64,000 nt of DNA. It comes from Planctomycetota bacterium (lineage in GTDB: Bacteria > Planctomycetota > Phycisphaerae > Phycisphaerales > UBA1924). Where the stretch lies: positions 930,001-994,000 of the forward strand of contig JBCBSM010000001.1 in NCBI GenBank assembly GCA_039819165.1, read 5' to 3'. The notes under the pieces were generated by a model. That model was not told where the DNA came from. It saw only the letters and a list, made by a program, of their open reading frames with translations, and made no database searches. Positions 26,236-26,647 of this stretch are shown in pieces. Made by a program: the position numbers and the translations under genes. How positions within the stretch are numbered: position 1 is the first letter of the stretch; the number at the start of each line of letters is the position of its first letter.

Positions 26236-26647
26236 GCGCTCGTAGCTCAGCAGGATAGAGCAACGGTTTCCTTCGGAAAGAGGGGCCCGGCTCCGGAAGG
26301 GGCCGAGGCGAACCGGGTGAACTCGGGGAACCCCTCCCCGGCGGCTCGATCGATCGCGGTCGCCTCCGCCGGCGGGCAATCCCGAGCCGAGCCGTCGGCG
26401 GGGTGCGGACGCGAGTCCGCGGCCGGCGGAAGGTGTAGAGACCAGCGGGTGAGCCGCCCCGGCAATACCCCCGCACCGGACCGGCTGCCCGTGCAGTCCA
26501 GCCGATCCGGAAGCGCCCGGCGCCCTACCCGAGCCGCGACGGTTCCCAAGAACCGGGCCCGGCGGGCGAAGAGATGGTCCGGACCGCGGCGAAAGCCGTG
26601 GAGCAGTCCGAAACCGTAGGTCGGAGGTTCGAGTCCTCCCGGGCGCG
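26236..26647 (+). tRNA. tRNA-Arg(CCU) interrupted by a group I intron
   Basis: The two exons are 26236-26272 and 26611-26647, together a 74-base tRNA. The acceptor stem GCGCTCG/CGGGCGC pairs over seven positions with one G-T. The D arm is GCTC/GAGC with GGATA in the loop (A20, an Arg identity element), the anticodon stem ACGGT/ACCGT, and the T arm GGAGG/CCTCC with loop TTCGAGT. After splicing the anticodon loop is TTCCTAA, giving anticodon CCU, which reads AGG codons. The CCA end is not encoded. Bacterial group I introns at this position, after U36, are known in tRNA-Arg(CCU) of Agrobacterium. Confidence 0.9.
26273..26610 (+). ncRNA. group I intron (IC3-like) in the tRNA-Arg anticodon loop
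   Basis: A 338-base self-splicing-type intron with no ORF. It follows a T and ends in G at 26610, as group I introns must. P4 is CTCGGG/CCCGAG (26322-26327, 26381-26386), with a P5 extension CCGGCGG/CCGCCGG (26338-26344, 26366-26372). P6a is GCGGAC/GTCCGC with a GCGA tetraloop (26405-26420). The core R segment AAGGTGTAGAGACCAG begins near 26430; P7 is GACCA/TGGTC (26440-26444, 26575-26579). P8 is a 12-bp stem with one mismatch (26476-26487, 26499-26510). P9 is CCGCGGC/GCCGTGG with a GAAA loop (26584-26601). A guide sequence GGG at 26282-26285 can pair with exon CCT. Confidence 0.9.

Follow-up and report, generated by a model that had tools for sequence, protein, structure and literature searches.

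A probable group I intron with an additional P7.1/P7.2 domain in the tRNA-Arg(CCU) gene of a planctomycete

The window considered here is the whole analysed stretch of 64,000 nucleotides from a Planctomycetota bacterium (Phycisphaerae; Phycisphaerales; UBA1924; contig JBCBSM010000001.1, positions 930,001 to 994,000). On its plus strand lies a tRNA-Arg(CCU) gene, the two halves of which are separated in the anticodon loop by an insert with the features of a group I intron. The gene begins 172 bases beyond ychF (24954-26063, minus strand; Pfam YchF), and ychF is also found within about 200 bases of this tRNA in its six congeners, and about 1.1 kb away in G034. Farther along the window, at 27152-28102 and 28274-29194 on the minus strand, two adjoining genes encode proteins that are alike by eye, the first of which matches Pfam PA14. 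The parts of the tRNA gene and the proposed elements of the intron are as follows.

26236-26272, plus: 5' exon of tRNA-Arg(CCU) (acceptor 5' strand, D arm, anticodon stem 5' strand, loop UUCCU)
26273-26610, plus: putative group I intron, 338 nt, beginning 3' of U36, last base G
26611-26647, plus: 3' exon of tRNA-Arg(CCU) (A37, A38, anticodon 3' stem, variable loop, T arm, acceptor 3' strand); the discriminator is G, and CCA is absent from the gene
26269-26285, plus: P1, exon UCCU (26269-26272) with guide GGGG (26282-26285), U.G wobble at the 5' splice site
26286-26308, plus: P2 hairpin with a GGAA (GNRA) tetraloop; two-sided changes in 5 pairs
26313-26520, plus: P3, in a pseudoknot with P7 (strands 26313-26319 and 26514-26520); invariant over 12 rows
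26322-26386, plus: P4 (strands 26322-26327 and 26381-26386); nearly invariant
26332-26334 and 26374-26376, plus: P5, short hairpin, nearly invariant
26387-26388 and 26432-26433, plus: P6, invariant over 12 rows
26392-26399 and 26422-26429, plus: P6a, 100% paired, two-sided changes in 3 pairs (12 rows)
26438-26580, plus: P7, guanosine-binding helix (strands 26438-26444 and 26575-26580); invariant over 12 rows
26445-26449 and 26470-26474, plus: P7.1, extra J7/3 domain, 100% paired, with two-sided changes in 4 of its 5 pairs (52 rows)
26453-26456 and 26460-26463, plus: P7.2, part of the extra J7/3 domain
26521-26568, plus: P8 (strands 26521-26525 and 26564-26568); two-sided changes in 3 of its 5 pairs (52 rows)
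26569-26574, plus: J8/7, directly 3' of P8
26581-26582 and 26608-26609, plus: P9.0, 100% paired in 12 rows and 89% in 52
26584-26590 and 26595-26601, plus: P9 with a GAAA loop; 6 of 7 pairs two-sided
26610, plus: terminal G, present in 23 of 23 introns

When the exons are joined, ARAGORN calls tRNA-Arg(cct), and the unspliced stretch receives no tRNA call. Trial deletions of 335-337 or 339-341 nt give a tRNA-Arg call in none of six cases. A 338-nt deletion slid by +1 to +5 is still called Arg(cct), so the splice phase is left unfixed by ARAGORN alone; slid by -1 to -8 it is called Arg(ccg), and by +6 to +8 it yields an untyped tRNA. The phase is settled by uninterrupted homologues with CGGTTTCCTAAACCG, together with the terminal G of all 23 introns, a count made with an expression that required this G, which the exon boundary fixes independently. 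The exon and insert coordinates given in a first-pass annotation of this DNA, made from the letters alone, proved exact to the base, and its description of a 338-nt insert that follows the anticodon U and ends in G is borne out by the sequence.

Over 12 sequences, the proposed pairs (69 in the intron and 21 in the tRNA) are paired in 97.8% of 1078 cells, and a control with slid partners gives 32.5-50.2%. Changes on both sides are found in 23 pairs over the 12 rows, 17 of them within the intron; the exons keep every tRNA stem, with compensatory changes in the acceptor, anticodon, and T stems. The 5' splice site and the terminal loops were compared in 23 introns (those of 22 of the 23 matching family genomes, plus G274 from another family; the contig of G087 begins inside the intron). 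The U.G and both C-G pairs of P1 are present in all 23, and its fourth pair is U-G in 19, U-A in 3, and U-U in 1. L2 is a GNRA loop in 21 introns by script and one more by eye, and L9 is a GNRA tetraloop in 16 (one more by eye), a GNNRA pentaloop in 5, and of another kind in 1. In the window a UUUCC/GGAAA hairpin also lies at the 5' splice site; it was rejected as P1 because the congeners lack it.

The more conserved helices vary in wider sets. P3 could be parsed in 53 of 54 rows of a wider set, where its first pair is C-G in 40 and U-A in 13, and its second C-G in 47, U-A in 3, and U-G in 3; the search expression largely fixed the remaining pairs and, at these two, admitted only G or A on the 3' side. 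One pair of P7 is split between U-A (28) and C-G (24) over 52 rows, in which P7.1, P8, P9, and P9.0 also covary; this alignment was fitted to the structure of the covariance model R1 (below). The position next to P5 is A.C in 7, G.U in 3, and C.C in 2 of the 12 rows, the window having C.C. P4 and P6 hardly change over the 12 rows and are therefore little tested. All of the helices listed in the first-pass annotation (P4, P5, P6a, P7, P8, and P9) are present; P1, P2, P3, P9.0, and the extra P7.1/P7.2 are additions to that set. To judge by its position in J7/3, the P7.1/P7.2 domain probably braces the P3/P7 region.

Two covariance models were used in addition to those of Rfam, each covering only the stretch between P7 and the 3' splice site. 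R1 was built from 12 sequences, that of the window and those of 11 other genomes with intron-spanning DNA matches. R2 was built from 12 RF00028-positive introns outside the family, three of them from other Planctomycetota; eight rows were obtained via a pattern that fixed letters of P7/P7.1, and four came from an RF00028 search. In the window the sole match of R2 is the intron (52.6 bits, E 2.2e-11), and in the organism's own genome there is a single match (E 1.1e-9). Since R2 scores introns of the tRNA-Leu type at 109-116 bits, a cyanobacterial group I intron at 41.4, and the cyanobacterial L273 at 19.4, the window intron stands above group I introns without a J7/3 domain and well below the tRNA-Leu type.

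The Rfam model Intron_gpI (RF00028) has no match to the insert at the gathering score or at E<=10, and none was found with it in the window or the own genome. The first-pass annotation had proposed this covariance search as a check and the lack of a hit as grounds for rejection; RF00028 is indeed silent, but the independent model R2 matches. The gathering score is a detection threshold rather than a structural criterion, and the miss reflects the reach of the model, because some homologues of this architecture do pass it. Among 13 sources, nine have an R1 match, of which five pass RF00028 (L108, L110, L121, L151, and L153) and four do not (L101, L102, L103, and L123). In a second run, on eight sources, L108, L110, L113, L127, and L140 pass, L186 reaches 29 bits (cut-off 50), and L101 and L002 give nothing at E<=0.01. 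In all, 12 relatives pass, and L101, L102, L103, L123, L186, L278, and L279 were run without passing. A search with RF00028 only, in which the P7/P7.1 pattern was not used, finds matches in 8 of the 90 genomes searched from the L113 class. P7.1 is treated as an insertion in the Rfam alignments of L108, L110, L274, and L275, where it separates the P7 5' strand from the P3 3' strand. P7.1 was dropped as the sole cause of the missing match, since homologues with P7.1 pass; likely causes of the window's low score are its extra hairpins, the P7.2 arm, and a high G+C content. Weak local matches to YrlA, tRNA-Sec, and Plastid-ycf2 (E 0.55-3) were judged to be chance.

The insert has a core of P3, P4, P6, P7, and P8 with the P3/P7 pseudoknot, a U.G pair with a guide, a terminal G with P9.0, and a match to a model of accepted group I introns only (R2). 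As to subgroup, GNRA loops in L2 and L9, which make long-range contacts, are an IC3 trait, whereas P7.1 between P7 and P3 is not known from IC3 and is a trait of IA. The window intron shares with IC3 its site in a tRNA anticodon loop, a short P5 domain without P5abc, and GNRA L2 and L9; it differs in having P7.1/P7.2 between P7 and P3, and is therefore called IC3-like rather than IC3. An excerpt of PMC11835236 likewise gives P5a-d as absent in IC3, and 14 subtype covariance models for group I introns are mentioned in PMC6125680. Structure, covariation, and the independent covariance model support the first-pass identification of a group I intron in tRNA-Arg(CCU). As judged from sequence, the insert is a real and conserved group I intron, probably active, and IC3-like with a P7.1/P7.2 domain.

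The intron is found in a minority of the family. A DNA search of 61 genomes, including the own, gave intron-spanning matches in 11 others, and R1 matches 23 of the 163 family genomes (22 besides that of the window), in 16 of 74 genera. A strict uninterrupted sequence, GAGC-N2-3-CGGTTTCCTAAACCG, is present in 65 of the 163 genomes and in none of the 23 intron carriers; the remaining 75 have neither and may have other tRNA letters or be incomplete. Where loci were fetched via half matches, an uninterrupted gene was read in 16 of 18. In a sample spread evenly over the phylum, R1 matches 14 of 392 genomes at E<=0.01, eight of them within the family. The sample outside the family holds three strong matches, L101 (in tRNA-Arg(CCU)), L102, and L103, and three weak ones, L104, L105, and L106 (E 0.003-0.008 per genome), which lack tRNA halves and a core by eye and were set down to chance. 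Plasmid and phage collections gave two short tRNA-half matches each; the plasmid-borne tRNA-Arg(CCU) genes, one alphaproteobacterial and one from Bacillota, are both uninterrupted.

Within the genus, the intron is present in all seven genomes examined, and the window is 78-83% identical to its congeners in intron DNA and 86-88% in YchF protein. Over 18 genomes, intron and YchF distances are correlated (r 0.668, reached in 0 of 5000 permutations), the test having excluded G007, G022, G067, and G132 from the 22 family introns because their YchF was unparsed. Such congruence would be expected had the intron been ancestral to the whole family and been lost many times with no lateral movement, a reading also favored by its occurrence in 16 genera and by an insertion site that is identical in family introns wherever both exons were read. 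However, the congruence comes from one genus: without the six congeners of the window (n=12), r falls to 0.153, which 1145 of 5000 permutations reach (not significant). The introns of G067, which the 18-genome test did not include, and G182 are 91% identical in DNA against 60% for their YchF proteins. These two and G021 have a distinct tRNA sequence in common and group together with support in the intron tree, where only 2 of 20 inner branches are well supported. The congeners of G067 (G012 and G066, with YchF 94% and 93% identical to its own) have neither an R1 intron match nor the strict uninterrupted sequence. The intron-bearing tRNA-Arg(CCU) of G067 (L255, 6642-7013) also adjoins a phage-type integrase gene (L255, 7032-8357, minus strand; Phage_integrase, Arm-DNA-bind_3), the stop of which lies 15 bases before the tRNA start. 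Ancestry throughout the family without lateral movement is regarded as less likely than not.

For G067, the mismatch between intron and YchF, the common tRNA sequence, and the adjoining integrase make transfer of the whole gene likely, possibly on an island. The integrase protein had no match in the window or at any other intron locus that was fetched. On the opposite side of the tRNA from the integrase, the G067 contig has genes for a DNA methylase and an ATPase-domain protein, an island-like arrangement. Inheritance therefore looks vertical within the genus and patchy beyond it, and tRNA and intron have probably moved laterally together at least once. The choice offered by the first-pass annotation, an ancient intron or lateral transfer, is resolved in part on both sides: the intron is common to the genus, and at least one transfer is probable within a patchy family distribution. 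A sporadic distribution and horizontal transmission are reportedly the subject, by title, of work by Paquin and colleagues (1999) on the alphaproteobacterial counterpart.

The organism's own genome, 3.14 Mb in 35 contigs with a rated completeness of 100%, has 47 tRNA matches. Of these, ARAGORN typed 44, none of them CCU; the three lowest-scoring drew no ARAGORN call, and two of the three are above the Rfam cut-off. A search of the genome with the whole locus at E<=0.01 returned one match, itself. No other tRNA-Arg(CCU) was found by either route, a point marked for checking in the first-pass annotation. That annotation had further supposed that gene callers would miss this tRNA and leave AGG codons seemingly unread. 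The first supposition is true of ARAGORN, the only call of which in the window is a tRNA-Ile at 33243-33315, and of the Rfam tRNA model, which misses the split gene over the window. The second is overstated, as a tRNA-Arg(UCU) is present (L034). This tRNA could decode AGG by wobble, and its existence means that the CCU tRNA may be non-essential; AGG accounts for 45 of the 14517 codons in a rough sample of 26 long ORFs, and AGA for 9. Since RF00028, the Rfam tRNA model, and ARAGORN all fail here, the tRNA sets of such genomes look incomplete. According to its authors (PMC8450103), tRNAscan-SE 2.0 was not designed to detect tRNAs with self-splicing group I introns.

The U.G pair at the 5' site and the terminal G point to guanosine-dependent self-splicing. 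After transcription, the intron RNA would fold through P3-P9, and a guanosine held in P7 would attack the U.G pair of P1, 3' of U36. The freed U36 would then attack after the terminal G of the intron, joining the exons as tRNA-Arg(CCU) and releasing the 338-nt RNA. From these features we infer that the gene is transcribed, self-spliced, and used. The preferred reading, to which a probability of about 0.93 is assigned, is that an IC3-like group I ribozyme interrupts the only tRNA-Arg(CCU) found in this Phycisphaeraceae-like planctomycete and splices itself by a guanosine-dependent route, and that it is vertically inherited in the genus and sporadic in the family, with at least one probable transfer of tRNA and intron together.

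A decayed intron would leave a dead ribozyme and a tRNA pseudogene, with AGG read by tRNA-Arg(UCU). The presence of that tRNA and the missing Rfam match would suit such an outcome, but the core helices are kept with compensatory changes in both the 12 and the 52 rows, the tRNA stems are all kept with compensatory changes in three of them (acceptor, anticodon, and T), and the intron persists in all seven genus genomes examined, all of which makes decay very improbable. That the insert is not a group I intron at all, but a protein-spliced intron of the bulge-helix-bulge type (bacteria would not be expected to have an archaeal-type splicing endonuclease) or some unrelated insertion, for instance a mobile element, can be practically dismissed despite the missing Rfam group I match, given the R2 match at E 2e-11, the presence together of the P3/P7 pseudoknot, P9.0, U.G, and terminal G, and a 100-aa reading frame (the one frame tested) without a Pfam match.

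Several known tRNA introns resemble the self-splicing intron proposed here. The Azoarcus tRNA-Ile(CAU) intron (IC3, about 205 nt) is like it in the order of its core motifs, in its GNRA L2 and L9, and in its insertion after U36, and is not known to have P7.1. The cyanobacterial and plastid tRNA-Leu(UAA) introns are likewise group I introns in a tRNA anticodon loop, with a site after U34 in cyanobacteria. The cyanobacterial L273 passes RF00028 (51.3 bits); by eye it lacks the GCRGG..UGAG..CCYGC domain in J7/3. Crystal structures of the Azoarcus intron are mentioned in an excerpt of PMC3984707. Among cases put to the test, BbgpI of Bartonella comes closest: this group I intron in tRNA-Arg(CCU) splices in vivo and in vitro, as stated in an excerpt of PMC7717549; the precedent from Agrobacterium cited in the first-pass annotation is thus in print. 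By the same excerpt, the Agrobacterium and Bartonella introns occupy the same tRNA and anticodon-loop site, and tRNAscan-SE finds the tRNA only after in silico splicing. BbgpI is flanked there by CCT direct repeats, whereas the window intron ends in ...CCG, and the host phyla differ. Another bacterial tRNA-Arg intron, described in part of PMC4853749, likewise interrupts its gene and was missed in annotation, and has a different anticodon. Among the matches listed from open-licence PMC literature, which is weak evidence of absence, there was no report of tRNA-Arg(CCU) introns in Planctomycetota. Group I introns in tRNA-Arg(CCU) are known as such; what is new here is the P7.1/P7.2 structural variant and a phylum for which no report was found, in which probable self-splicing tRNA-Arg(CCU) introns can now be placed.

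Relatives of the P7.1 type occur in other tRNAs and phyla. The pattern AGAGACYAGCRGG(N)TGAGC, which fixed part of P7.1 and left its 3' strand free, was found in 53 stretches among 84,980 genomes, and 37 of the 53 are introns by R1. Because the pattern fixed them, the 5' letters of P7.1 are conserved by selection in rows found in this way. Stretches with the P7/P7.1 pattern but no acceptable R1 match were set aside (16 of 53 genomic and 63 of 64 viral). The hosts, as labelled, are Phycisphaerales/Phycisphaerae, Isosphaeraceae, other Planctomycetota, and many Patescibacteria lineages, with single records from Myxococcales, Methylomirabilota, and "Proteobacteria" and a few labelled only "bacterium." From 52 loci (some fetched twice), a script that assumed a fixed splice site after U gave a junction in 37, of which ARAGORN called 28 (19 as Arg(cct) and 9 as CAU); the Phe, Leu, and Asn cases were read by eye.

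These relatives lie in CAU tRNAs (other Planctomycetota, including the strains Paludisphaera soli JC670 and Aquisphaera insulae JC669), in tRNA-Phe (Patescibacteria, Methylomirabilota), in tRNA-Leu (the class of L113 and L127, with a Myxococcales record), and in tRNA-Asn (L102). Read by eye, the introns follow U33 in tRNA-Phe and tRNA-Leu, and U35 in tRNA-Asn. P7.1-type introns in tRNA-Phe (L110, L121, L141, L143, L147, and similar loci, mostly Patescibacteria) are placed just before the anticodon. Six tRNA-Leu loci of the L113 class, read in addition to L113 and L127 (L274, L275, L277, L278, L279, and L280), each show P7.1 by eye, and their introns sit after U33 instead of at the cyanobacterial site; P7.1 is absent by eye from L276 and the cyanobacterial L273. 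L102 is a group I-like intron between anticodon bases 35 and 36 of tRNA-Asn(GUU), without the common P7.1 motif. Apart from L102 and, in part, L101, these relatives have the core and J7/3 domain of the window intron, mostly with a simple P7.1 loop where the window intron has the P7.2 hairpin. The J7/3 domain is, by sequence comparison, common to introns in CAU tRNAs, tRNA-Leu, and tRNA-Phe of other bacteria, and may serve as a marker for tracing the movement of tRNA introns. A tentative proposal, with the odds somewhat against it, is that the domain marks an uncharted intron lineage that has moved among tRNAs (Arg CCU, CAU, Phe, Leu, and perhaps Asn) and phyla, partly by replacement of whole tRNAs on integrase islands rather than by homing.

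Further matches lie outside this tRNA series. One environmental viral contig (L186, 1926-2680) carries a P7.1-type group I intron in a phage protein gene that is capsid-like by eye; it scores 29 bits with RF00028 and 67 bits with R1, and is the one relative among the 64 viral stretches. It holds a reading frame that is LAGLIDADG-like at its start, by eye, and has no Pfam match. G355 is matched by R2, and L267, L272, L276, L281, and L282 are further matches of RF00028. L267 and L272 come from the contig of a filamentous cyanobacterium, where the two RF00028 matches lie about 650 bases apart beside sequence that is rRNA-like by eye.
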